Below, in pieces: positions 9,001 through 61,952 of a stretch of 64,000 nucleotides of DNA (the first letter of the stretch is position 1; every line of letters begins with the position of its first letter). This DNA comes from Lichina pygmaea (lineage: Eukaryota; Ascomycota; Lichinomycetes; Lichinales; Lichinaceae): the NCBI GenBank assembly GCA_963422465.1, contig OY730169.1:310001-374000 (forward strand). Reading direction: 5' to 3'. A program made the translations under genes and the position numbers. Under the pieces are notes generated by a model. It saw only the letters and a program-made list of their open reading frames with translations, was not told where the DNA came from and did no database searches.

Positions 9001-9561
9001 ACAAGAAATCGAAAATGGCACCTCAGCTAAAGAAGGGGGATAAAGTCTACCTCCTCACAAGAAATTGGAGAACGAAGAAACCAAGAACAAAGAAACTGGA
9101 CCATGTTAAGGTCGGACTATTTTCAGTCGAAGAAAAAACCAGACCAGTCAATGTCAGACTGCGACTACTGAGAGACGCTTGGGTACACCCAAACTTTCAC
9201 ATCTCAATGATTGAATTAGCTGACCAGAGCACACCCTTGCAGGAAACATTTTATTACCAACCAGAGGAAGAACAGAAATTCAAGGCTGAACAGATCCTGA
9301 AGAGAAAAGGTCAGTGATACCTTGTCAAGTGGAAAAACTACCCAGACTCGGAAAATACCTGGGAGCCACTCAGGAACCTCGTGAACTGCCAGCTCCTCCT
9401 GCAGCAGTTCTGGCAGAAGCAGGACTGAACAGCTTGGCCTGCAGCGCGGATGTGTCAATGACTGTCACCGACAAGTCTTCACCATCCACCTCCATTTCAG
9501 CAACAAGGCACTGGAGCTTCTTCTTTGCTCAACCCTCAGCACCCTCAAGAACCTTTCACTT

Positions 9562-9801
9562 TCAGGACACACAAGCCTGCAGCTTGGCAAGCTGCTCAAC
9601 AAGAGCATCCCGCTTGGCCTCATCGACAGCCAAATCCTCGCGAAGGTTATCCCAAGTCATGTTCAGCGACTCCCAAGAAAGTGACACACAGGACTTCCCA
9701 CGACAAGTGCATTCAGCGCACTTCAATTTATTGTTGTTGTCAGACATTCGGAAGCAGGGCTTGTGGTTCAAAACACAGAAGTCACACAGAGCAAGCAACA
9801 C
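9562..9801 (-). CDS. Antisense ORF of Gypsy-1b, Zn2Cys6-like cysteine cluster plus helix
   Basis: This 79-residue frame is the counterpart of 1,171-1,410: same position (start 114 bp inside the LTR edge), same strand relation, and the same C-x2-C-x6-C-x11-C-x2-C-x6-C cluster at about residues 6-37. A Leu/Glu/Ala/Lys-rich helix follows at about residues 50-75. It keeps the six cysteines although the neighbouring pol is broken in many places. Gypsy-3 and Gypsy-4 have longer antisense ORFs with the same design. A DNA-binding or regulatory role is inferred, not shown. Confidence 0.55.
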   Translation of the reverse strand: MLLALCDFCVLNHKPCFRMSDNNNKLKCAECTCRGKSCVSLSWESLNMTWDNLREDLAVDEAKRDALVEQLAKLQACVS

Positions 9802-9914
9802 AAAGTTATGATCACAGATCTGGGCTGCCAGTTAGTTTCAGTAAGCAGAGGCACGTGATTTTGCAGACATACTCAAGAATTCATTGGGACGATGAATGAA
9901 GGAGAGGAGGGTAG

Positions 9915-10277
9915 TGTTACGACCCAGGGGATGGGAGCCACTCATTTATAGGCAATCAGGCTGTGGGCCAGGCAAGAGGACACCATGGAAGTCAAGTGAC
10001 CAACCAACAAGGGGTCACGTGACTGTCGAGACACACACGGGAGTCTTGACGCAGGATGCATGAAGCATCAAGACAATCTCACCAGTCTTGACGCAGGATG
10101 CATGAAGCATCAAGACAATCTCACCAGTCTCAACGCAGGATGCATGAAGCATCAAGACAATCTCACCAGTCTTGACACAGGGTGCATAACATGGTGGGAC
10201 TGTCGAGACAATCTCACCTGTCTTGACGTCGAGACTGTCAAGACAATCTTGATTGTCTTGACAGGCCAGCACTATAT
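9915..10277 (+). repeat. 3' LTR of Gypsy-1b, truncated by LINE-1b
   Basis: The first 363 bp of the LTR are present, ending at the TATA-like box, where the T-rich (antisense poly-A) tail of LINE-1b begins. The remainder of the LTR is not found on the far side of LINE-1b, so the right flank has been lost or rearranged. Confidence 0.88.
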
Positions 10278-30470: not shown

Positions 30471-33400
30471 ATGATGCCAGAATATGAGCCGGTTGGCGAC
30501 GATCTCGCCTTCCTGGGGCAGGGGGTTTTTGGCGTGGTTGAAAAAGTGGCCCGAAAACCCGATGGACAGGCAAGCCACCTTCACACCATGCCTCCAAGGA
30601 ACAAAAGTAACTGGGATAAAACGCAGGTCTTTGCTTGCAAGACAATCCGCTTCGCCAGTGACGAGAAGCACAGGAAACCTGCTCGGCGAGAGTACTCAAT
30701 TCTCTCTGTCCTCAACCACCCAAACATCGTCGAGTATATTGACATTCAGTGGACACGTACCTCAGCCAAGATTTACATGGCTTTTTGTGAAGGCGGAAGT
30801 CTGGCAGAGTTTATATCGCGAAAGGCTAGGTGGGTGATGTATCTGAGTTCTGATATTGATAGCAGCTGATGCTCTTGTTTTCCAGGGCGAAAGAGCACGT
30901 ATCAGAGCCCTATTTGCTCAGTGTTTTTGCTCAATTGAGCGCAGCCCTGTTTTACTGTCACCATGGTGTCAACATCAGCCAGACAGGTTCCGGAAGTGCC
31001 ATGTTGCCTAAACCGACTCAGGTTATCATCCATCGTGACCTGAAGCCTGGAAATGGTGCGCAAGTTGAAGCCTGTTCTGGTTCTTAAATCTTGAAGTAAA
31101 TTGCCACTAACTGCACTAGTTCTATTATCAACTAGAGATGAGACGGAAGATGTTGTTGTCAAGTTGGGGGATTTTGGGCTGTCAACCTTCGTGGACGATG
31201 AGAAGGCACCGTCCACATATGTTGGCACCAAGGACTACATGGCTCCGGTAATCCCCCACTACAAGATCTCTGTTGCTGTAGCTGACACCAGTTTCGGACA
31301 GGAAATCCGCGGCGACAGACAAGACTCCAATTGTTGGACCGAGAAGTGCGATGTGTTCTCACTTGGCTGTATGGCATACAACCCGAGCACATTAAAGCAA
31401 CAGATGACTAACAGTCTCACAGGTACTATGTATGAGCTTGGCAAACTGCAACGTCCGTTTCCTGGCCACATGGAGGAAGATGATGCTTTCAAGCCTCTCC
31501 CAGACCACTACTCTCAAAAGCTCCGGAACTGTGTGGTGGCCTGCATGTCCTATCGTCCGGAGCGCCGCCCTGACGCCTTTGGTCTTGTGAGGTCTACTGA
31601 GGATCTTAGGTCTGGTGGCGCCAGCAACAGTCCATCGCAGGAAAAGCAGAATGGGCCCCTATCTGTACAGAGCTTGAGAAAGACAACCGAGACCATGGAC
31701 ACCAGTCTGGCAGTAAGCTTGCACTTATCACCCAGCTTGAAGTGTAGTGGCACAAGTAACAATTCATCACAGGGAAAGCAAACTGGGCACTCATCTGAAC
31801 AGAGCTTGAGCAAGCCACCGCAGACTAGTGACACCAGTCTGGCCATGGCCTGGCAGTCACCACCCAGTCCTATCTTGCGCTCTGTGTCTGCCAGCACACT
31901 CGACCTAGAGGCGCCAGGCTCTGAGCACCTGAACACTTTAAGGAGTATGCAGGAACTCGCGACAGAGCTCTGTGATCATGACAACTATAAGGCAGCTGAG
32001 GATGTCTACCGAAAAATTCTGGAGACTAATCAGCAGCTACTGGGCTCTAAGCACCCAGACACTCTTACAAGCATGCACAGTCTTGTAAATGTTCTCCACG
32101 AACAGCACAAGTTTATGTCAGCTGAGGATGTCTACCGAAAAATTCTGGAGACTAATCAGCAGCTACTGGGCTCTGAGCACCCAGACACTCTTACAAGCAT
32201 GCACAGTCTTGTAAATGTTCTCCACGAACAGCACAAGTTTATGTCAGCTGAGGTGATATGCCGAAAAGTCCTGGAGCTCCGTCAGAAAGTGCTGGGCTCT
32301 GAGCACCCAGACACTCTGTCAAGCATGCACAATCTTGCAGATACTCTCGAAAGTCAGCACAAGCTTGTGTTAGCTGAGGAGATATACCAAAAAGTACTGG
32401 AGCTCCGTCAGAAAGTGCTGGGCTCTGAGCACCCAGACACTCTGTCAAGTATGCATAATCTTGCATATACTCTCGAAAGTCAGCACAAGCTTGTGTTAGC
32501 TGAGGAGATGTGCCAAAAAGTACTGGAGCTCCGTCAGAAAGTGCTGGGCTCTGAGCACCCAGACACTCTGTCAAGCATGCACAATCTTGCAGATACTCTC
32601 GAAAGTCAGCACAAGCTTGTGTTAGCTGAGGAGATGTACCAAAAAGTACTGGAGCTCCGTCAGAAAGTGCTGGGCTCTGAGCACCCAGACACTCTGTCAA
32701 GCATGCATAATCTTGCATATACCCTCGAAAGTCAGCACAAGCTTGTGTTAGCTGAGAAGATGTACCAAAAAGTACTGGAGCTCCGTCAGAAAGTGCTGGG
32801 CTCTAAGCACCCAGACACTCTGTCAAGCATGCACAATCTTGCAGATACTCTCGAAAGTCAGCACAAGCTTGTGTTAGCTGAGGAGATGTACCAAAAAGTA
32901 CTGGAGCTCCGTCAGAAAGTGCTGGGCTCTGAGCACCCAGACACTCTGTCAAGCATGCATAATCTTGCATATACTCTCGAAAGTCAGCACAAGCTTGTGT
33001 TAGCTGAGGAGATGTGCCAAAAAGTACTGGAGCTCCGTCAGAAAGTGCTGGGCTCTGAGCACCCAGACACTCTGTCAAGCATGCACAATCTTGCAGATAC
33101 TCTCGAAAGTCAGCACAAGCTTGTGTTAGCTGAGGAGATATACCAAAAAGTACTGGAGCTCCGTCAGAAAGTGCTGGGCTCTGAGCACCCAGACACTCTG
33201 TCAAGTATGCATAATCTTGCATATACTCTCGAAAGTCAGCACAAGCTTGTGTTAGCTGAGGAGATGTGCCAAAAAGTACTGGAGCTCCGTCAGAAAGTGC
33301 TGGGCTCTGAGCACCCAGACACTCTGTTAAGTATGTACAATCTTGTATATACTCTTGAAAGTCAGCACAAGTTTGTGTCAGCTGAGGAGATGTACCAAAA

Positions 33401-33524
33401 AGTACTGGAGCTCTGTCAGAAGATACTGGGCCCTGAGCACCCATTAACTCTGTTATGCATGCGCAATCTTGCAAGGATGCTTGACCAGCAGGGCAAGTCT
33501 CAGGCGGCTGAGGAGATGTGCTGA
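30471..33524 (+). CDS. Protein kinase with a TPR (kinesin-light-chain type) repeat array
   Basis: Five exons are inferred: 30,471-30,829, 30,886-31,055, 31,138-31,247, 31,302-31,368, 31,423-33,524. Introns are 54-82 bp with GT...AG ends and CTAAC/CTGAC branch sites, and all phases join. The result is 935 residues. Residues about 1-260 are a Ser/Thr kinase with every key motif: LGQGVFGVVEKV loop, Lys in VFACKTI, Glu in REYSIL, HRDLKPGN, DFG in KLGDFGLS, and MAPE restored by splicing. A Ser-rich linker with an internal duplication follows, then twelve 42-residue TPRs with HPDTL signatures (about 31,948-33,520), several almost identical. No NB-ARC/NACHT domain is seen. Kinase-TPR proteins may act in sensing or non-self recognition; that role is inferred. 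The second intron has a weak GTGCGC donor. Confidence 0.8.
31980..33520 (+). repeat. 126-bp TPR-coding tandem array
   Basis: Twelve units of 126 bp. Units 1-2 form one subtype (TNQQLLGS, LVNVLHEQHKF). Units 3-10 alternate between LADTLESQHK and LAYTLESQHK, giving a 252-bp higher-order repeat. Units 11-12 are more diverged. The nucleotide sequence within a subtype is nearly identical, including third codon positions. Confidence 0.92.
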
Positions 33525-33925
33525 AGAGTACTGGAGACCTGTCAGAAGGTGCTGGGCCATGAGCACCCAGACATGCTATCGAGTATGCATAAGCTTGCAA
33601 GAATACTTGACTAGCAGGGCAAGTCCAAGAGAGCGGAGGAGACGTTCCGACAAATACTAAAGCTCCAGCAAAAGGAGCTTGACCCTGAAGACAGCAGAAC
33701 TCAAGAGATCCAGGATCGTCTTTCAAAGTTAATCAAGCGAAAACACAAGGCAGCCGGAACACACTGGATCAAACGGATGTCGAAAAGATACTGGAAACCC
33801 AGACATACCGGTAAGTCCGGTCTTTACAGATCACGAGCCTTCCGCTCGCAAAACCCTTCGTGGTGTCAACGAACAACTTGTATCTTGGTAGGACACGATG
33901 AACGATGGATAAGGACTGACTGAAA
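33525..33925 (+). pseudogene. Decayed C-terminal extension of the kinase-TPR gene
   Basis: Beyond the TGA at 33,522-33,524 the same frame continues with a recognisable thirteenth TPR (GHEHPDMLSSMHKLARILD). A TAG follows at 33,612-33,614 where the preceding repeat has CAG, then a basic helix-rich tail to about 33,920. The two stops are consistent with C-to-T changes in codons that are Gln in related units, so the ancestral protein was probably longer. Alternatively a downstream intron skips this part; a GTAAGT donor lies near 33,811. Confidence 0.6.
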
Positions 33926-45600: not shown

Positions 45601-48600
45601 CTTTGTTCCCACCACGATCACCACGGAGGTCCCCACCACGATCACCACCGCCGTCGCGACCACCATCCCTACCACCGTCACTGTACCCACCACCGTCACA
45701 ACCAGCGTTCCCGAGCTTATCACAGTCGTCAGCGGCACGACGACCACGGTCATCACTCCATCTCTGGTGATCTCGACATTCACCCAATCTGCTTCGACCG
45801 TGACCGCTCTGAGTACCGTCACGAGTACCCTACCCGCCTCGACGGTGACGGAGGACGGGACCACAATTACTCTCCCAGGGAGCATCACAACTCTTACGCA
45901 GACAGCTCTGACAACACTGCCGGGTTCGACGATTCTCACGGCCCTGACAGAGACAGTCACCACTCCATCTCTGGTGATCTCGACAGTCATCCAATCCGCT
46001 TCGACTGTGACGGCTCTGGGTACCGTCACGAGTACCCTACCCGCCTCGACGGTGACAGAGGACGGGACCACAATTACTCTCCCAGGGAGCATCACGACCC
46101 TTACGCAGCTGTCCTTGACAACGCTGCCGGGGTCGACGATCCTCACGGCCCTGACAGAGACAGTCACCACACCGTCTGTGGTGACCTCGATAGTCACCCT
46201 ACCTGCCGTGACTGCGACGTCTCTGATCACCACCACGAGTACCCTACCCGCCTCGACGGTGACGGAGGACGGGATCACGTTTACCATCCCAGGGAGCATC
46301 ACAACCCTTACGCAGACAGCTTTGACAACACTGCCGGCGTCGACGGTTCTCACGGCCCTGACAGAGACAGTCACCACGGTGTCTCTGGTGACCTCGACAG
46401 TCACCCTACCTGCCGTGACTGCGACGTCTCTTATTACCACCACGAGTACCCTACCCGCCTCGACGGTGACAGAGGACGGGGTCACGTTTACCATCCCAGG
46501 GAGCATCACGACCCTTACGCAGCCGTCTTTGACAACGCTGCCGGGGTCGACGAGTCTCACGACCCTGACGGAGACGCTCATCTGTAAGACGGTTCCCGGT
46601 TGGATCGCCTCGATGGTAGCGCACTTTGGATGATCTGACATGCTTGCTGTTCTAGCGTCGTTGACTGTCACCGCGGTGGCCACATCATCTGTACCCACTA
46701 CGGTGACTGTATCACCATCTACAGTGACGGCGACTCTGACCGCGACCAGCGTGCAGCCTGGGACAACCATCACGCAGTCTGGGACGACCGTGACGATATC
46801 AGCCTCCACCTTCACATTCACCTCGACCAGCGTGAGCACTGCTCCGGGATCGACAATCACGCAGGTATCTACACAGCTGGTCACACAGGTTACTGTCGTA
46901 TCCGTGCCTGTGACTGTGCCCACCACAGTCTTCTCGACCGCCATAGAAACATCGCTCGTGACGAGCACAGTGTCGCCTTCGACTACCACCTTGTCTGGGG
47001 AGGTGACAACTCTGCCTGGCTCGACGGTAACCATCAGCTCCGTGGTCACCAACGTCTTGGCAGGCACCACGGTTATTTCGACTTCTGTTGTGCCAGCCTC
47101 CACCGTCACAAGCGTCTCGCTGAGTATCCTCACCGCACCTGCTGTGACGGTGACCGAGTCCGGGGTGGCGACCATCCTCCCTGGATCCACCGCGACAGAG
47201 TCGGTGACCCTACTCAGCACCGTTCCGGCTTCTACCATCCTTCAGCTGTCGACCATATTCAGCACCGTTCCCGGCCCTACCGTCCCCGGCCCTACCGTCA
47301 CCGTCTCCTCTCCCGGCTCCGGCCTCACGGAGTCAACTCAGGACGCACCTCCCGGTCCGGTTGAAGAGCCGCCTACAGATGTTACGAGTCCACCGACCCA
47401 GCTTACCCCAGTCGGGCCGGTGGTGGAGTCGCCCACGGGCATTACGAGCCCACCAGACACGCTGCCGATTGGTCCGACGACGATCGTCGACGTCAGCGTC
47501 GGCGAAACAACCTTCACAACCACCCAGACGCTACCCGCGATCACACTTTGTTCCAAGCGTATGACCAATCCGACCTTCACACCCCCGACACCCCTCCCGA
47601 CCGATTTCGCCTGGGGATGCCGCGCCGGGTCTATCTGCCGGCCGCCACAGGACGACTGCAACTTCGAAGAAGCCCCGCCAGATCCAGGCTACTACTGCGC
47701 TCCTGCCGATTGCTTGCCGGCGCCGCCGCTTCGCGAGTTCCAATACTGGGGAGAGCCTGTCAACTCTACGGAGGCGGGCAAATACGCGGTGCAGGACGGG
47801 TACTACAACCTCGATCCGCGCAACTTTGGTCTCGATTACGAAATCTTTACGCGGGAAGTCGTGCTCGTGGTAACGGCCAACACAACGCTGTCGTCGGATT
47901 CAGTATTGTCGGCGGTGCACGACGGTCCATCTGCACCTCCAACCTCGTCGGAAGATGGCTTGGGCAAGGGTTACGGCAAGAAATACGGCAAGAAATACGG
48001 CAAGAAATATGGCAAGGGCGACGACAAGGACGTCGGCAAAGGGGCCTCAAAGTACGGCCATCATCACAGCAAACGATACTCGAGACGACTCGTGAAACGG
48101 GCCGACCTGGCTCCATCGAATTGCTACGAGGAGTGCAACTCTTGCATCCTCGAGGCCCAGAGCACCGGCAAGAGTCCCGCGTTGTGTGCGGCGGACAGCG
48201 TCTTCACGTCGAACGTCGAGAGCTGTCAAGACTGCATAGCTCTGCACGGCGGCTCAGACTCGACCGCCTTCACCGACGTGGTCGAGCCCGATCTCGGGCA
48301 GTGGCTGGACTACTGTGAAGGCACCGAAGCCACACCGGCATCGCCGGTGGCCGAGAGCATGGTCGACGAAGACCAGTCAGGCATAACAGCCGGCAGCGCC
48401 GTCGAGGCCTCGCCCGCTCTGGAAACAGACAGCGATGCGGGTGACGCGGGCGATGGGGACGATTCATCAGGGACGTCCGCATCTTCCGCTGCCATTGTCG
48501 TCGCTGGTGACAGCTCTACGACCCCCGAGGCCAGCGCGAATGGTGGCTCGGGAGACGGCGATGATGCGAGCGTCGACACTGGCGACGATACATCTGGAGA

Positions 48601-49537
48601 GGAGGATGATGGTTCGAGCACTGGTGCCGGTGCTGAGGCCACCTCCGGAGACGAGGGCGATGATTCGAGCGGTGATGCCGGTGTCGAGTCCACCTCCGGA
48701 GACGAGGGCGATGATTCGAGCGGTGGTGCCGGTGCCGAGTCCACCTCCGGAGACGAGGGCGATGATTCGAGCGGTGATGCCGGTGCCGAGTCCACCTCAG
48801 GAGACGAGGGCGATGGTTCGAGCGGTAGTGCCGGTGCCGAGTCCACCTCCGGAGACGAGGGCGATGATTCGAGCGGTAGTGCCGGTGCCGAGTCCACCTC
48901 CGGAGACGAGGGCGATAGTTCGAGCGGTAGTGCCGGTGCCGAGTCCACCTCCGGAGACGAGGGCGATGATTCGAGCGGTGGTGCCGGTGCCGAGTCCACC
49001 TCCGGAGACGAGGGCGATGGTTCGAGCGGTGGTGCCGGTGCCGAGTCCACCTCCGGAGACGAGGGCGATGGTTCGAGCGCTAACGCCGACGCCAATGGTA
49101 CCTCGGGAGAGGAGGGCGATGATTCAAGTACCGACGCCACAGAGGGTTCTGGCGACGACGTCTCGTCCACGGCAGATGGATCAGGCACAGGAGGCAGCAT
49201 CACGTCGACCGCAGACGCGGCAGCTACCCAAGCGAGCGATGATGCCGACGATGATGATGAGGAGTCGGCTTCCACCACCGCGGATGCCGTGGCTGGCGAC
49301 AGCGACGGCGATGGTGGCTCTGGCGGAGCTTCGACGCGAACAGCGACCGCCGGTGCCGGTAGTGGCGCTGGTGCTTCTGATTCTGGCCGCTCCGGTTCTC
49401 CGACCCAGAGTGCCACCACAAGCCCATCCGTACCGCTCTCGAACGACAGCCGCAAGACCATGGCGCCAACGGTCTCGGCCTTTGTCGCATTTGCCATCTC
49501 GGCCATATTCCTCCCTCTGTTTTCTTTTCTTTCGTGA
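42650..49537 (+). CDS. GPI-anchored Ser/Thr-rich adhesin-like wall protein, 17 exons
   Basis: Exons: 42,650-42,826, 42,901-43,007, 43,069-43,141, 43,270-43,340, 43,413-43,622, 43,883-43,938, 44,025-44,079, 44,137-44,258, 44,322-44,379, 44,436-44,581, 44,656-44,713, 44,770-44,939, 45,007-45,064, 45,120-45,403, 45,476-45,530, 45,586-46,583, 46,656-49,537. All phases join to 1,859 residues. Features: signal peptide (MKCAAALRTRLGALAVAACL); long Thr/Ser/Val/Pro mucin-like stretches; four 70-residue repeats with TLPASTVTEDG (exon 16); a Cys-rich block (near 47,550-47,720); GKKY repeats (about 47,963-48,020); a second Cys-rich block (48,120-48,240); acidic 17-residue repeats; and a hydrophobic C-terminus typical of GPI addition. 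Likely role: cell-wall adhesion or shielding. Exon 7/8 and exon 6 donor choices are the least certain. Confidence 0.8.
44322..45403 (+). repeat. Tandemly duplicated exon pairs inside the adhesin gene
   Basis: Exons 9, 11 and 13 are all 58 nt with the same phases (PVT(V/T)TTTD...TLT motifs). Each is followed by a longer Thr-rich exon (10, 12, 14). Exons 10 and 12 share IERTTSVPTTTTETTRETT, and their following introns are also alike (GTATGA start, GGTCATCTAGCTGA..AATCCAG end). This is an intron-containing genomic duplication. Confidence 0.8.
45820..46560 (+). repeat. Four 210-bp (70-residue) Thr/Ser repeats
   Basis: Units starting ACCCTACCCGCCTCGACGGT recur near 45,824, 46,034, 46,243 and 46,451. 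Each encodes TLPASTVTEDG..T...PGSITTLTQ and is highly conserved at nucleotide level. Confidence 0.88.
48590..49120 (+). repeat. 51-bp acidic minisatellite in the adhesin stalk
   Basis: About nine tandem units encode TSGDEGDDSSGGAGAES with small changes, preceded and followed by degenerate units. The run is strongly acidic and Ser/Gly-rich, as in extended wall-protein stalks. Copy number is likely variable between strains (inferred). Confidence 0.9.
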
Positions 49538-53472: not shown

Positions 53473-53909
53473 TGTTAAAGGCCAGTCCACGTTCACACAG
53501 AATGTGGGTGGTCCTGTCTTCGACCGAGGAGGGCAGGGACTCAATAGATGAATAGCAAGTGGGGTAACTCTCTTGCTATTGTCGCTCGTAATGTGCGTTC
53601 AGCCTGGAGAGCTATTCTCTCCGGCTATCTGGGTTCTTATATACAGGAGCCTGAGGGGGGGGGTCCTCCCGAGGGGTATCAGCTTTCTGCGTGGACGAGC
53701 TGGACAAGCTGGTTACACGTCGTCCGCCTCGTCCACCGTGGACGAGCTGGACGAGCTGGTTACACGTCGTCCGCCTTGTCCACCGTGGACGAGCTGGACA
53801 AGCTGGTGACACATCGTCCACCTCGTCCACCGGGTCGGGTGAACATTGTTCCGTGTACCTCTGTACACTCGCTTCGGTCGGCTCAGCCGTTCCGGCCTGG
53901 GCCTTAACA
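53473..53909 (-). repeat. 3' LTR of Gypsy-3 (three 47-bp units)
   Basis: 437 bp, TGTTAAAGG to CCTTAACA. Three 47-bp units (GTGGACGAGCTGGAC start) lie at about 53,690-53,830. CTTATATAC near 53,636 reads TATATAAG on the element's sense strand. Confidence 0.93.
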
Positions 53910-53961
53910 CCATCCCCTCCCTCCAAAGGTTCTGTCCCCAGATCCTTTCGCTTCTCTTACC

Positions 53962-54492
53962 ATGACCCGGACATCTCGTGTTAATCATCGTGGAGTCCTC
54001 GGTTCTCGTGTTGGCAAGATGGGCAAGGTGTCCAAAGTTTCATGCAGCGCATGTCGTCGTGACCGTGCCAAGTGTGTTGTCAGTTCAGAGTCCACACTTT
54101 GCGGTCGGTGCCTTGAGAAGGGTCGCCGTTGCGATCTCCATCTCGCGGAGTCGGAGTGGGAGAAGATGGAGCTTGAGCGCACTCAGCTCAAGGCTCAACT
54201 GAAGGAGATCAAGGAGCAGGAGTCTGTTCTCCTTCCTCGCAAACTTCGTCTCCGTCGTCAGTTGGGTGTGTTGTCCAAGAAGGAGGGTGAGGCCATCAAG
54301 CGTGAGCTTGCTGCGATCGAGGATCAGGAGGATCTCGAGCAGGAGGCTACGCGTGTGGAGTCCCCGCCGCCTTTGGAGGACTTCTTCTCTTCGGAGGCTT
54401 TGGCTTCTCTCGAGCCTTTGTCTCCATCAATCCTGGCTTCTGCGGGTTTTGTCGGTGGAAACTCCGCAGTTTCTCGTTCGTCGCAGGGCTGA
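53962..54492 (+). CDS. Antisense ORF of Gypsy-3: Zn2Cys6-like protein with coiled coil
   Basis: The frame is 176 residues, opposite to gag-pol, with an ACCATG start 53 bp inside the 3' LTR. Residues about 28-57 have C-x2-C-x6-C-x8-C-x2-C-x6-C with a basic RRDRAK between the second and third cysteines, the canonical fungal Zn(II)2Cys6 binuclear cluster layout. A strongly charged helix (about 65-130, EWEKMELERTQLKAQLKEI) follows, likely a coiled coil, then an acidic, Pro/Ser/Leu-rich tail that could be an activation-type region. It is open throughout although pol is broken, and Gypsy-4 keeps the same design. Its 3' end overlaps the chromodomain end tail to tail. Transcription would start in or near the LTR. 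Role inferred. Confidence 0.65.
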   Translation: MTRTSRVNHRGVLGSRVGKMGKVSKVSCSACRRDRAKCVVSSESTLCGRCLEKGRRCDLHLAESEWEKMELERTQLKAQLKEIKEQESVLLPRKLRLRRQLGVLSKKEGEAIKRELAAIEDQEDLEQEATRVESPPPLEDFFSSEALASLEPLSPSILASAGFVGGNSAVSRSSQG

Positions 54493-54640
54493 AGTTCTCG
54501 GTGGGTTCCCACGAGTTCTCCTCATTGTCATACCCTAACCACTTGACCAGGTATTCGATTTTCTGTCCGCTTCTCCGGCTGTCTAGGATCCTTTCGACAT
54601 CGTACTCTTCTTTGTCGTCCTCAAAGTGCCATTCTGTTTT
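54480..54640 (-). other. Chromodomain of Gypsy-3
   Basis: On the minus strand the sequence encodes the chromodomain core YLVKWLGYDNEENSWEP, with the aromatic residues used in methyl-lysine binding. In chromoviruses it follows integrase and guides insertion to marked chromatin. Confidence 0.8.
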
Positions 54641-57600
54641 GATTGCTGCGTCGCTGGGTGCTGGCTCAAGCAGCGAGACATGGAATACTCGGTGTATCCG
54701 TGCCTTTTTTGGCAGTCTCAGTCGGTAGTTGACTTCTCCAGTGCGCTTCTCAATCTCAAACAGTCCGATTCGTACATGATCCAGCTTTTTGCTCGGTCAC
54801 TTCGAGCGCAGGTTTTTTGTTGACAAATAGACCTTATCCCCTCTCTCCAGGGTTGGTCCCTTCAACCTTTTGCTGTTTAGGCAGTGGCTTGTTGTCTTTT
54901 GTGCGGATTCAATTGCAGTCTTCATTTCCTCATGCATAGCAGTGAGTTTTTCGATGTTCGCTGAAGTGCCACTTCCAGCCACCATCGCTTCCCAGCGGGG
55001 GTTTCTGCCGTAGTTCGCAAAGAACAGTGTCATGCCTGTCACGCTGTGTTGCTGATTGTTGTACGCAAACTGAGCCATTGGTAGCAGTTCTACCCAATCG
55101 TCCTGTCGGTGGTTGACGTAGTGGCGTAGGTACTGTTCCATCGTCTGGTTTGTTCTCTCAGTTTGTCTGTCTGTTTGTGGATGGTAGGCAGTAGACATCC
55201 TTGTGTCTATCCCTAGCTGTCTTGTCCACGTGTTCCAGAATTTCGAGGTGAAGAGTTTGTCTCGATCTGAGATAATCTTCTTGGGTAGCCCTCGCTGGCT
55301 AACCAATTCTTTGAGCAGGACATTGGCGAGTCCGCTCGCTGTTCCTGTCTCTCGCCACAGGATCAGGTGAGCGTATTTGGTGAGGTTGTCAACAACCACC
55401 AAGATACTGTCATATTTCACCTTTGTTACCGGGTCCTCTGACCTCGGCAGCTTCACCACAAAATCCATTGTGATAGTATCCCAAGCCGCTTCTGGGAGGT
55501 CCATTTGTTGACTCTCTCCATAGGGTTTGTGGCGTGACGGTTTGTTTTTCGCACACTCTTCGCAGTTGCGAATAAATTCTGTCACTTTCCACTTCATTCT
55601 GTTGAAGTGGTAACATCTCCGGATCTTTTCCAGGGTCTTGTCTCGCCCAGGATGTCCGTGTAGAGGTCTATCGTGATGTTGTCGAATCACGTCCTCTTGT
55701 GCGCTCTCTGGCACTTCTTCCTTGTTCGTGGCCGCAACATTGTGGCCTAGGGTCAGGAGTGCACCCATTTCTTCAGTTTTCGCTAACTGAGGTTGAGCAT
55801 AGACCAGAGTTTGTCCTTTTGTCACAAGGATTGGGCGCTCTTCTGTCGTGTCGTCTGTCGTCATATCAGGCCGCCTGCTAAGCGCGTCCGCTCGTGCGTT
55901 TTCTGATCCTTTTCGATAGAAGATCTGGAAGTCGTATGAAGCTAAAAGCTCTGCCCATCAGACTTGTCGTCTGTTTAGCTTCTTCGTCGTCGTGAAGTAA
56001 GCCAAATTCTTGTGGTCTGAGTACACGTCCACTGTGTACTTTGCTCCTTCCAGGTAAGGTCTCCACTCCTGGAATGTGTCGACAATCGCTAACAACTCCT
56101 TGTTGTGAACATCGTACCTGAGTTCTGGGCCAGAGAACTTTCTTGATCAGTATGCGACAGGGTGTAGGCGGTTTTCGGCGTCTGGTTGACACAAGCAAGA
56201 TCCAAGTGCTTGGTCCGAGGCATCCGTCTCCATGATGATCCGCCGTCCGGGATCAAATGATGCCAGTATGGGTGCGGAGGTGAACTTCTCTTTCAGCTCC
56301 TGGAACGCTCTCTCTTGGCTGTTCCCCTATGTGAAGGTTTCTTCCTTCTTTGTTAGTTCAGTCAAGGGTGCTGCTGTCCTCGAGTACTTCTTGATGAATC
56401 GTCAGTAGAAGTTCGCAAATCCCAGGAAGGATTGGACTTCTTTGAGGTTTTTGGGTGTTGGCCAGTCTCGTACTGCTGTGATCTTTGTATCGTCCATACG
56501 GATTCCTTCTGTCGTCAGGATCGATCCCAAATATTCCACTTCTTTCACGTGGAAGACACTCTTATCAAAGTGTAACCTCATTCCTGCTTCTTGGAGCGCA
56601 TGTAGGATCTTCTTGACATGCTGTCTGTGCTCCTCCAGGGTTCCATTGGTGTAAACCAAGACATCGTCGATATAAGCGGTAATAAATATATCCAGGTATT
56701 GTCGGAGGATGGCGTTAATAAGCGATTGGAACATCGCCGGTGCATTCGTAAGGCCAAATGGCATAACAGTATACTTGTAATGCCCGTTCCTTGTACGAAA
56801 GGCTGTCTTCCATTCTTCACCATCTTTCATCCTAACCAGGTTGAAAGCGCCTCGGATGTTGAACTTGGTAAACTACTTGGCTCCTTGGATTCAGTCCTGG
56901 ATTTCCGATATTAACGGTAGCGGGTAGCGATTCTTAATCGTGATCACATTAAGCTGCCAGTAGTCGATGCACAGTCGTAATTTGCCGTCCTTCTTTGGCA
57001 CAAACAATATTGGGTATCCGGCCGGTGATGTTGAAGGTCTTATGAACCCTTTCGCTAGGTTCTTGTCCAGGTAATCTCTTAAGACCTCAAGCTCCTTTGC
57101 TGATAGGGTGTAAATAGGGCTGTGTGTGGGTTTCTTTCTGTCTTCCAGCAGAATTTCGTGATCCCACTCTTGGTGTTCTGGTAGCGTCGTGACTGCTTCC
57201 TCACCAAACATCTCCTGGTAGTCTTTATACTCACTTGGCAGCTGCGGTGCCTGAGTCTCGCCCACGGCGTCATGCGTGGTGCAAAGTTGATGGTTTCAGG
57301 GCTTCATCCAAGCCACATAGGCTCGCCCTCGCCGGTGGTGCTTCTTCCACCCTGCATATGAGATCTCTTTGATTCTCACTTTTTCTGGCTCTGCTCGAGT
57401 TGCCAGACTCCTCTTCGGAAAGACTAGGTGCCTTCTTTTCCAGTCGATCCTTGGGTTTTGACTTTCCAACCACAGAAGACCCAATATAACTTCATGTGGT
57501 ATCTGGACCAAGTCGAATTCTTCTGATCCAATTGTCGTACTGTCGACACACAGTTGTAGATTCTTGGTCTCCTTCATCACTCGTCCTTGGTTGTTGGAGA

Positions 57601-59441: not shown

Positions 59442-59831
59442 TGTTAAAGGCCAGTCCACGTTCACACAGGATATGGGTGGTCCTGTCTTCGACCGAGGAG
59501 GGCAGGGACTCAATAGATGAATAGCAAGTAGGGTAACTCTCTTGCTATTGTCGCTCGTAATGTGCGTTCAGTCTGGAGAGCTATTCTCTCCGGCTATCTG
59601 GGTTCTTATATACAGGAGCCTGAGGGGGGGGGTCCTCCCGAGGGGTATCAGCTTTCTGCGTGGACGAGCTGGACAAGCTGGTTACATGTTGTCCGCCTCG
59701 TCCACCGTGGACAAGCTGGACGAGCTGGTTACACATCGTCCACCTTGTCCACCGGGTCGGGTGAACATTGTTCCGTGTACCTCTGTACACTCGCTTCAGT
59801 CGGCTCAGCCGTTCCGGCCTGGGCCTTAACA
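59442..59831 (-). repeat. 5' LTR of Gypsy-3 (two 47-bp units)
   Basis: 390 bp, TGTTAAAGG to CCTTAACA. It is exactly one 47-bp unit shorter than its partner. Confidence 0.93.
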
Positions 59832-60339: not shown

Positions 60340-60926
60340 TGTTGCGGTCTGTACCGTGCCGTCCTAACCGAGTATAGGATTAAGGGCAAGATGCGGAAGG
60401 CAGGTTGGTTCTCGCAGGAGAGGAGTGTCAAGGAGCGCGAAGGGGTTTGGTGGAACGTGGTGGTGGTGACACCTGATCAATGGCTTCGTACAAAAGGATT
60501 GTATTGAAGTAGATCTAGTTGTCTGGATCACAACATAAGTTGAAGACGATTGTTCCATAAGGGAACTATCGCCAGACTATATAGTGCTGGCCTGTCAAGA
60601 TGATCAAGATTGTCTTGACAGTCTTGACGTCAAGACAGGTGAGATTGTCTTGACAGTCCCACCATGTTATGCACCCTGCGTCGAGACTGGTGAGATTGTC
60701 ACAATGCTTCATGCACGCTGTGTCAAGACTGGTGAGGCTGTCTCAATGCTTCCTGCATCCTGCATCGAGACTGGTGAGATTGTCTTGATACTTCATGCAT
60801 GCTGCGTCAAGCTGCCTGTGTGTAGGTCAACAGTCACGTGACCCCTTGTTGGTTGGTCACTTGACTTCCATGGTGTCCTCTTGCCTGGCCCGCGGCCTGA
60901 TTGCCTATAAATGAGTGGCTCCCATC
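60340..60926 (-). repeat. Antisense Gypsy-1 LTR, truncated by Gypsy-4
   Basis: This is the reverse complement of the Gypsy-1 LTR, from TGTTGCGGTCTG (LTR end) to GAGTGGCTCCCATC, missing only the last few bases (the LTR start), where Gypsy-4 inserted at 60,927. It contains diverged 42-bp minisatellite units (about 60,640-60,810) and is more diverged than the copies at the left of the window. Confidence 0.88.
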
Positions 60927-61318
60927 TGTTAAAGGCCGGGCCGGGTTCACACAGAAACTGGTACAGTCTGTTGCTTCGCAGGGCGGATTCTAGACAGGGA
61001 CTCGGTAGAGAAATAGACAGGTGGGGTAACTCTCCTGTGCTATTGTCTCAGTATGATGTGTGCGTATTGTGTGTTCAGCCTGGAGAGCTAATCCCTCCGG
61101 GCCCTTGGGGTGGTCTTTATACAGATGCCCTAGGGGGGGGGTCTCCTCCGAGGGGTATCATCCTTTTGCGTGGACAAGCTCCTCGCTTAGCTCCTGCTTG
61201 TCCACCAGACAAGCTCCTCGCTTAGCTCTTGCTTGTCCACCAGATCAGTCAGATGTTGTTCCGCATGACTAACACTCCTCCCTCACTTACCTGGGCTGTT
61301 CTGGCCTAGGCCTTAACA
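60927..61318 (-). repeat. 3' LTR of Gypsy-4
   Basis: 392 bp with the same TGTTAAAGG/CCTTAACA ends as Gypsy-3. Two units of about 39 bp lie near 61,168-61,245. Confidence 0.9.
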
Positions 61319-61379
61319 CTATCCCCTCCCTCCAAGGGTTCTGTCCCCAGATCCTTTTCGTTCCTGCTCCTCTTTTGTC

Positions 61380-61952
61380 ATGAACCAAGGCCAGACAACT
61401 CAAACTTGTTGTCGCAGTTTTCTTTCTTGTCATATTGGCAAAATAGGCAAGGAATCGAAAATCGCATGCGGTGCTTGTTGTCGCGACCATGCCAAGTGTG
61501 TTGTGAGCTCCACATCATCTTTTTGTTGTCGGTGTGTTGAGAAGAGTTGTCACTGTGACCTTCATCTCTCGGAATCAGAATGGAAGAAGATGGAACTTGA
61601 GCGCAAGCAGCTCGAGGCTCAGCTGCGGGAGACTGATGACCAATTGTCAAAGTTGCTTCCCTGGCAGATCTGCCTCCGCTGGCAGCTGGGTTGTCTCTCA
61701 CAGAAGGAGGCTGATGCTATCTGTCGTGAGCTGTCAGCCATCAAGGATCAAGAGTCTCTTGATGCTCAGGAACAAGAGGCTCTCCGTGTTATCTGCGAAC
61801 AGGAGGCCAGTCAGGCTGCTGCTCCGCCGTCCTTTGAGGATGTCTTCTCTTCAGAGACTTTGGCTTCTCTTGAGCTGTTGTCCCTGTCAGACCTGGTCGC
61901 TGTGGGTTTGCTCAGTGGTAATCCACCAGCTTCTGGTTCATCGCAGGGCTGA
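61380..61952 (+). CDS. Antisense ORF of Gypsy-4: Zn2Cys6-like protein with coiled coil
   Basis: The frame is 190 residues, opposite to gag-pol, starting 62 bp inside the LTR. It keeps the six-cysteine cluster C-x2-C-x6-C-x8-C-x2-C-x6-C (about residues 32-61, with a few additional Cys). A charged helix (ESEWKKMELERKQLEAQLRE) and the acidic Leu/Ser-rich tail (FSSETLASLELLSLSDL) follow, and the same SSQG end as Gypsy-3. The residues between the second and third cysteines are less basic (CRDHAK). An extra helix segment (about 135-150) is absent from Gypsy-3. Conservation of cluster, helix and tail across diverged DNA supports past selection on this frame. Function inferred. Confidence 0.65.
   Translation: MNQGQTTQTCCRSFLSCHIGKIGKESKIACGACCRDHAKCVVSSTSSFCCRCVEKSCHCDLHLSESEWKKMELERKQLEAQLRETDDQLSKLLPWQICLRWQLGCLSQKEADAICRELSAIKDQESLDAQEQEALRVICEQEASQAAAPPSFEDVFSSETLASLELLSLSDLVAVGLLSGNPPASGSSQG

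Follow-up and report, generated by a model that had tools for sequence, protein, structure and literature searches.

The window analysed here is a 64-kb stretch of a 32.5 Mb genome assembled in 8 contigs (contig 1, positions 310001–374000); judged by its content, the source is probably a filamentous fungus. It contains two minus-strand chromoviruses, called elements A and C here, and each carries an open reading frame on the opposite strand. The antisense ORF of element type A encodes 176 amino acids (53962–54492, + strand). That of element type C encodes 190 amino acids (61380–61952, + strand) and is open despite CpG decay. Both ORFs begin immediately internal to the 3' LTR and end at the chromodomain end of pol. 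A preliminary description of the locus had reported two such antisense ORFs, and both are present at these positions.

Element A is bounded by a 5' LTR (59442–59831, − strand) and a 3' LTR (53473–53909, − strand). AATAT flanks both LTR ends, and the element is nested within a LINE that we take to be Tad-like. Of 437 columns in the alignment of the two LTRs, 381 match; the differences are 9 transitions and 47 gap columns, without any transversion. The gap columns correspond to one unit of a 47-bp tandem array, by which the 5' LTR is the shorter of the two, so the copy number of the array changes between or after replication rounds. The integrase portion of pol (INT; 54797–55864, − strand) is open in this copy. 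A stretch read from the sequence as the polypurine tract (PPT) of the sense strand lies at 53910–53961 and would form a CT-rich leader for the antisense ORF. A TATA-like box at 53637–53643 (− strand) belongs to the putative sense promoter of gag-pol. The 5' end of R is predicted at 53598–53605 (− strand), where 8 nt can pair with the start of the internal region as in a self-priming primer-binding site. A match of equal length was seen in 10 of 1000 shuffles, and the stretch sits approximately 30 nt from the TATA box. Judged from the sequence, the pairing and the spacing fit a self-primed element with its U3/R boundary at 53598–53605.

Element C extends beyond the window edge; its 3' LTR lies at about 60927–61319 (− strand). 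Just before this LTR, the region 60340–60926 shows inverted matches to LTR stretches of a further gypsy family (family E, see below); it appears to be one more neighbour, of element C or E, that sits inside the LINE. Elsewhere in the window, two host-like ORFs (31868–33679 and 48488–49252) contain long in-frame tandem repeats with units of 126 bp and 51 bp.

Both antisense ORFs contain a zinc-cluster-like motif, CX2CX6CX8CX2CX6C, at 54043–54132 in ORF A and at 61467–61556 in ORF C (both + strand). The canonical spacing attributed to them earlier is therefore confirmed. Fungal Zn(II)2Cys6 domains follow the spacing CX2CX6CX5–12CX2CX6–8C, and ORFs A and C have the cysteine spacing of PF00172. 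The two proteins are 59% identical. A six-frame scan of the window found zinc-cluster spacing in an open frame four times; in 40 Markov-simulated 64-kb sequences it was not found. Two of the four matches are ORFs A and C, and the other two are antisense near the 3' LTRs of family E.

The ORFs are repeated in the genome. With ORF A as the query, at least 61 matches showed 85–100% identity when 150 of 288 candidates were scored, and 53 of these 61 had no internal stop. With ORF C, 46 of the 150 matches scored (of 272 candidates) were stop-free, so that most of the C- and B-type matches listed are broken; type B is described below. These stop-free tallies were counted by hand from tables. The copies compared with one another numbered 50 of type A, 12 of type B, 11 of type C and 2 of type D. 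All six cysteines are kept in 45/50 A, 11/12 B, 9/11 C and 0/2 D copies, the B and C counts of intact frames and cysteines being biased because all fetched B and C copies were chosen stop-free. The two type D copies (L079 and L080) are approximately 60% identical to ORF A, both contain stops and have lost cysteines; they are an older, decayed relative.

To read the selection on these frames, only comparisons between types are informative. Differences within a family are 89–100% transitions, depending on the position, and within-family dN/dS was left unused for this reason. Over 124 codons of one A–B pair (L009 and L059), dS is 1.02, dN is 0.21 and dN/dS is 0.20 (bootstrap confidence interval 0.11–0.34). 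The antisense ORFs of A and C give a dN/dS of 0.26 (0.13–0.48), and INT of A and C gives 0.14 (0.10–0.21). We also compared all reading frames over 150 sampled A–B pairs, with frames assigned by coordinate. In the first part of the ORF the median pN/pS of the ORF frame is 0.34, and the other two forward frames give 1.10 and 1.93. The reverse frames give 1.06, 0.58 and 1.56, the last being the pol frame. The value of 0.58, also below 1, belongs to the mirror frame (−1), which has its third positions in common with the ORF. Transversions in the ORF are distributed as 18/11/24 over the three codon positions, a pattern that CpG transitions could not produce.

Could the frame be a by-product of sense coding, or open by chance? 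The last third of the ORF does overlap the tail of pol, and CpG decay seldom creates stops in the ORF frame. In the overlapping tail (50 codons) pN/pS is 0.56 for the ORF frame, 0.47 for the mirror frame and 1.06 for the pol frame; as the mirror frame is the lower of the first two, constraint in the tail is the weaker evidence. Among 49 A copies, 39 have the stop codon of pol at ORF nucleotide 385, 448 or 490 (in the other 10 the chromodomain motif was not found); 11 of 12 B copies have it at nucleotide 409, and it was located in 2 of 11 C copies. These positions place ORF codons 1–128 outside pol. The pol frame itself shows no constraint over the ORF, the simulated windows lack the motif, and the ORF recurs across families that differ widely in INT. 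The pol-stop positions, the frame comparison and the simulated windows lead us to reject a sense by-product or a chance ORF over the first part, and for the ORF as a whole we consider this explanation barely credible. The preliminary description had named a dN/dS near 1, or a frame that arises from sense coding, as grounds for abandoning its reading; neither holds for the first 124 aligned codons. It is also very improbable that the antisense RNA alone matters, for example in dsRNA silencing, with the open frame incidental. The accessible text of PMC7264820 notes that retroelements can have antisense transcripts that function at the RNA level, but the constraint seen here is at the protein level in the antisense frame, and the cysteines are kept. 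We are confident that the antisense gene is real and under selection.

The frames had also been described as open while pol is broken. As an observation this holds: stops are present in the ORF in 4 of 49 A copies and in INT in 24 of 49. As evidence of function it does not, since CpG decay acts on sequences of differing codon content. Among A copies 83% of C/T differences are at CpG, and CGA codons number 0 in the window ORF A versus 6 in INT. Selection after insertion to keep the frames open was considered and rejected, as CpG decay and codon content account for them. Across family A (e.g. L009–L058), C/T differences per C site reach 0.243 at CpG, compared with 0.011–0.017 elsewhere. RIP is usually described as CpA-preferring. 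The usual CpA-type RIP was rejected as the source of this decay, which is centred on CpG instead.

The predicted protein is zinc-cluster-like, and we use this term rather than filing it as a PF00172 member because it misses the Pfam cut-off. ORF A scores 16.3 bits against Zn_clus (cut-off 21 bits), and ORF C gave no match to this profile. Zn_clus was found in 7 of the 17 members of an alignment (A3) at E up to 10, with a best value of 7.6e-4, and in none of six family E members. No significant sequence match to solved zinc-cluster proteins in the PDB was obtained (best E 0.95–1.2). Searches with ORF A, A3 and A2 against viral contigs, and with A2 against genome contigs, found no relatives outside this genome; both collections are non-fungal.

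A structure model of ORF A was built from 2 sequences (mean pLDDT 67.7, pTM 0.32). It consists of short helices at residues 29–33 and 48–53 and a long helix at residues 63–132 (54148–54357, + strand; block pLDDT mostly 79–95) that may form a coiled coil. The coiled-coil-like helix of the preliminary description thus reappears in a model of modest quality. The acidic tail mentioned there is present as well, but as read from the sequence it is modest. When the model was compared with 350,542 PDB chains by Foldseek, there were 13 matches at E up to 10, and all 13 were Leu3, Pho7, Put3, Gal4, Ppr1, Hap1, AlcR and two CBF3 chains. The E-values were all 0.39 or higher, so that none is individually significant. 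The matched CBF3 chain presumably carries a zinc cluster.

Family E extends the same layout to a second lineage. It is a gypsy family that lies on the plus strand in the window, and its two motif matches (9688–9786 and 1297–1395) are found close to 3' LTRs on the opposite, minus strand. They belong to decayed copies of an antisense ORF at 9370–9870 (− strand; open homologues have 166 amino acids, e.g. L083:112–612) and at 979–1479 (− strand; ends set by offset from the first copy). When 150 of 493 candidates were scored, a hand count gave at least 20 stop-free matches with open frames of 191–206 codons. Each of six fetched open copies has a 166-residue ORF with the motif CX2CX6CX11CX2CX6C. The E ORFs end where the chromodomain on the opposite strand begins, as in types A and C. 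The INT regions of A and E are only 42% identical over 307 residues, and the two lineages are accordingly far apart. That the gene occupies one and the same site in A, C and E speaks for a long history within these elements. In a global alignment, ORF A and the E ORF score above 2000 of 2000 shuffles (z 8.6). With the cysteines masked, z is 2.1 for A–E and −0.1 for B–E, and when the comparison is limited to the sequence beyond the cluster, z is 3.2 and 2.1. A comparison by hhalign of ORF A with E gave a probability of 2.4% (E 0.019). ORFs A and E may share descent, for which the alignment with masked cysteines gives no clear support. In the E LTR (9915–10000, minus strand), CCTATAAATGAG can be seen by eye approximately 80 nt ahead of the E antisense ORF; it is a possible TATA box directed at this ORF.

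The LTRs carry tandem arrays. The U3 array of element A (53690–53832) has a 47-bp unit repeated 3.0 times with inverted arms GTGGACGAG/CTCGTCCAC, and it is a candidate operator. The U3 array of element C has a 35-bp unit repeated 2.1 times (61173–61244), and the type B array has a 35-bp unit repeated 4.1 times, from which the C unit differs by CpG-type changes only. The LTR array of family E (10042–10187) has a 42-bp unit repeated 3.5 times with arms GTCTTGA/TCAAGAC. The units of A, B/C and E differ, and each has inverted arms (9 bp in A, 8 in B, 7 in C and 7 in E). Arms as good were obtained in 18 (A), 35 (B), 25 (C) and 35 (E) of 500 shuffles, so they are individually weak. GGACGAG/CTCGTCC is common to the A and B arms. 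The arrays have the sense TATA box on one side and the antisense ORF on the other, which is where an operator shared by the two transcription units would be expected.

Type B copies combine the two element types. The B ORFs are 80–85% identical to ORF C versus 61–64% to ORF A, and the differences between B and C ORFs are almost all transitions. The INT beside them is A-like, for example 96% at C6:2320724, which adjoins the B ORF at C6:2322102. We followed informative sites of the transversion type along one B copy. There are 16 A and 0 C sites up to 53614, 3 A and 96 C sites from 53615 to 54549, and 4 A and 0 C sites from 54550 to 54789. Type B, in this copy, is thus of mosaic origin: its R-U5 and pol come from type A, and a single block that runs from the predicted U3/R boundary into the chromodomain comes from type C. 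Within the exchanged block lie the TATA region and the U3 array, the edge of the LTR and the PPT, and the complete ORF together with the chromodomain end. The interval of the left breakpoint (53591–53615) holds the predicted U3/R boundary. R-U5 and U3 are A and A in 50/50 A copies, A and C in 4/4 B copies, and C and C in 4/4 C copies; the ORF type therefore equals the U3 type in 58/58 copies (50 A, 4 B and 4 C). Strand transfer and template switching belong to the general mechanism of reverse transcription, and the B recombination fits an intermolecular first-strand transfer plus one template switch. The mosaic amounts to a natural swap, present in many copies, in which the gag-pol of one lineage is joined to the U3-ORF block of another. 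The joint block is the newest fact in this analysis, and adjacency alone may explain it, as one recombination could carry both U3 and ORF without a functional tie.

We propose, as the best single mechanism and with somewhat more confidence than doubt, that the antisense gene encodes a zinc-cluster DNA-binding regulator that acts on its own U3. An antisense accessory gene would be common to a group of fungal chromoviruses. Its product would be a small zinc-cluster-like protein in which a six-cysteine, zinc-binding module is followed by a long, probably dimer-forming helix and by a short tail of acidic and hydrophobic residues. The 3' LTR or the adjoining CT-rich leader would drive its antisense transcription. 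The dimer would bind the tandem inverted-repeat U3 array, which has the sense TATA box on one side and the antisense gene on the other. In this way it would control its own transcription and also how strongly the identical 5' LTR transcribes gag-pol in the sense direction. The regulator and the array, neighbours at the 3' end, would move as one block during recombination in reverse transcription, by first-strand transfer at R and then a template switch in the chromodomain. Of the earlier claim that the element encodes its own zinc-cluster regulator, the coding and selected frame and the zinc-cluster-like pattern followed by a helix stand, and the regulator role is what we infer from them. Action on the LTRs, also suggested earlier, receives indirect support from the joint block and the complete linkage of U3 and ORF types; the action itself would follow from the proposed mechanism.

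The same constraint data would fit a nuclear protein that is not a transcription factor but an accessory to replication or integration (a chaperone, or a factor for nuclear import or targeting), with the U3 array unrelated. The zinc-cluster match under the Pfam cut-off agrees with this, and the accessible text of PMC7264820 discusses plant antisense aORF proteins as nuclear or replication-related, with function not known. The linked U3 and ORF types and the zinc-cluster fold neighbours point to promoter DNA instead, and we regard an accessory factor as rather unlikely. More improbable still is that the ORF is a zinc-cluster gene captured from the host whose targets are host genes, such as those of silencing or stress, and not the LTR of the element. 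The host genome is rich in zinc-cluster domains (27 Zn_clus matches), and the ORF motif resembles them. No host gene was identified as the donor by a profile search that reached the repeated copies only, the shared site in A, C and E speaks for an old element gene, and the U3 linkage favours a target in cis. If the regulator is extended to a portable cassette, in which a zinc-cluster regulator gene and its own U3 operator array are swapped between gag-pol lineages as a unit through strand-transfer recombination, the proposal becomes tentative, and we would put it a little short of even. Exchange of the ORF and the control region together between families looks as if a switch and its control site were paired, and under the cassette proposal each family would keep a matched regulator and LTR.

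Plants, Boty and some retroviruses provide known cases of antisense genes beside the 3' LTR, and mostly no function has been assigned to them. The brtn gene was reportedly described by Zhao et al. (2011, Virology) as an antisense gene of Boty-like chromoviruses in Botrytis cinerea. The accessible parts of several papers treat brtn of Boty as an antisense gene in fungal chromoviruses (PMC8365987, PMC7264820, PMC4227169, PMC5987419), and one places it as an antisense aORF between pol and the 3' LTR, in Sclerotinia too (PMC7264820). The earlier remark that no description of such an ORF was known is wrong for position and strand (PMC8365987, PMC7264820, PMC4227169, in their accessible parts). Compared by description only, brtn likewise adds an antisense gene to a fungal gag-pol element that has a chromodomain; U3 linkage is absent from the accessible descriptions of it. 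A zinc cluster in such antisense ORFs was not described in the literature searched, with subscription papers mostly outside its scope, and a term search of PMC3248453 found no mention of zinc or antisense.

The plant aORF-3R genes (Grande gene23, RIRE2 and Retand) are likewise antisense between pol and the 3' LTR, and a nuclear or DNA-binding role is suspected for them in the accessible text of PMC7264820 and PMC11963269. The former text states that, as of 2020, aORF-3R proteins had no clear similarity to other proteins described. Retand antisense ORFs carry TRP28 (PF04195), as far as the accessible part of PMC11963269 describes them. Retand differs in being a non-chromovirus, and a Pfam search found no TRP28 match in ORFs A and C, the alignment or the E members. 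The fungal Zn(II)2Cys6 regulators (Gal4, Hap1, Leu3 and Put3) resemble the ORF product in their cysteine spacing and in the helix after it, which is of a kind that suits dimers, and zinc-cluster proteins are the sole fold neighbours of the ORF A model besides CBF3. Unlike these regulators, the ORF scores below the Pfam cut-off, is encoded by a retrotransposon and is without a long regulatory domain. With a frame under selection, a protein that points to a well-studied DNA-binding class and a linked U3 array as a concrete candidate target, the purpose of antisense genes can now be tested in yeast with short pieces of DNA.

HTLV-1 HBZ is also an antisense-encoded regulator near the 3' LTR of a retroelement; it is expressed from a 3' LTR promoter and acts on transcription from the 5' LTR (PMC10186651, accessible part). 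HBZ is a bZIP protein instead of a zinc cluster and belongs to a retrovirus, bZIP is absent among the Pfam matches of ORFs A and C, the alignment and the E members, and we claim no sequence relation. If the cassette proposal is correct, the antisense gene would parallel HBZ in a retrotransposon, with a DNA-binding module typical of fungi in place of bZIP.
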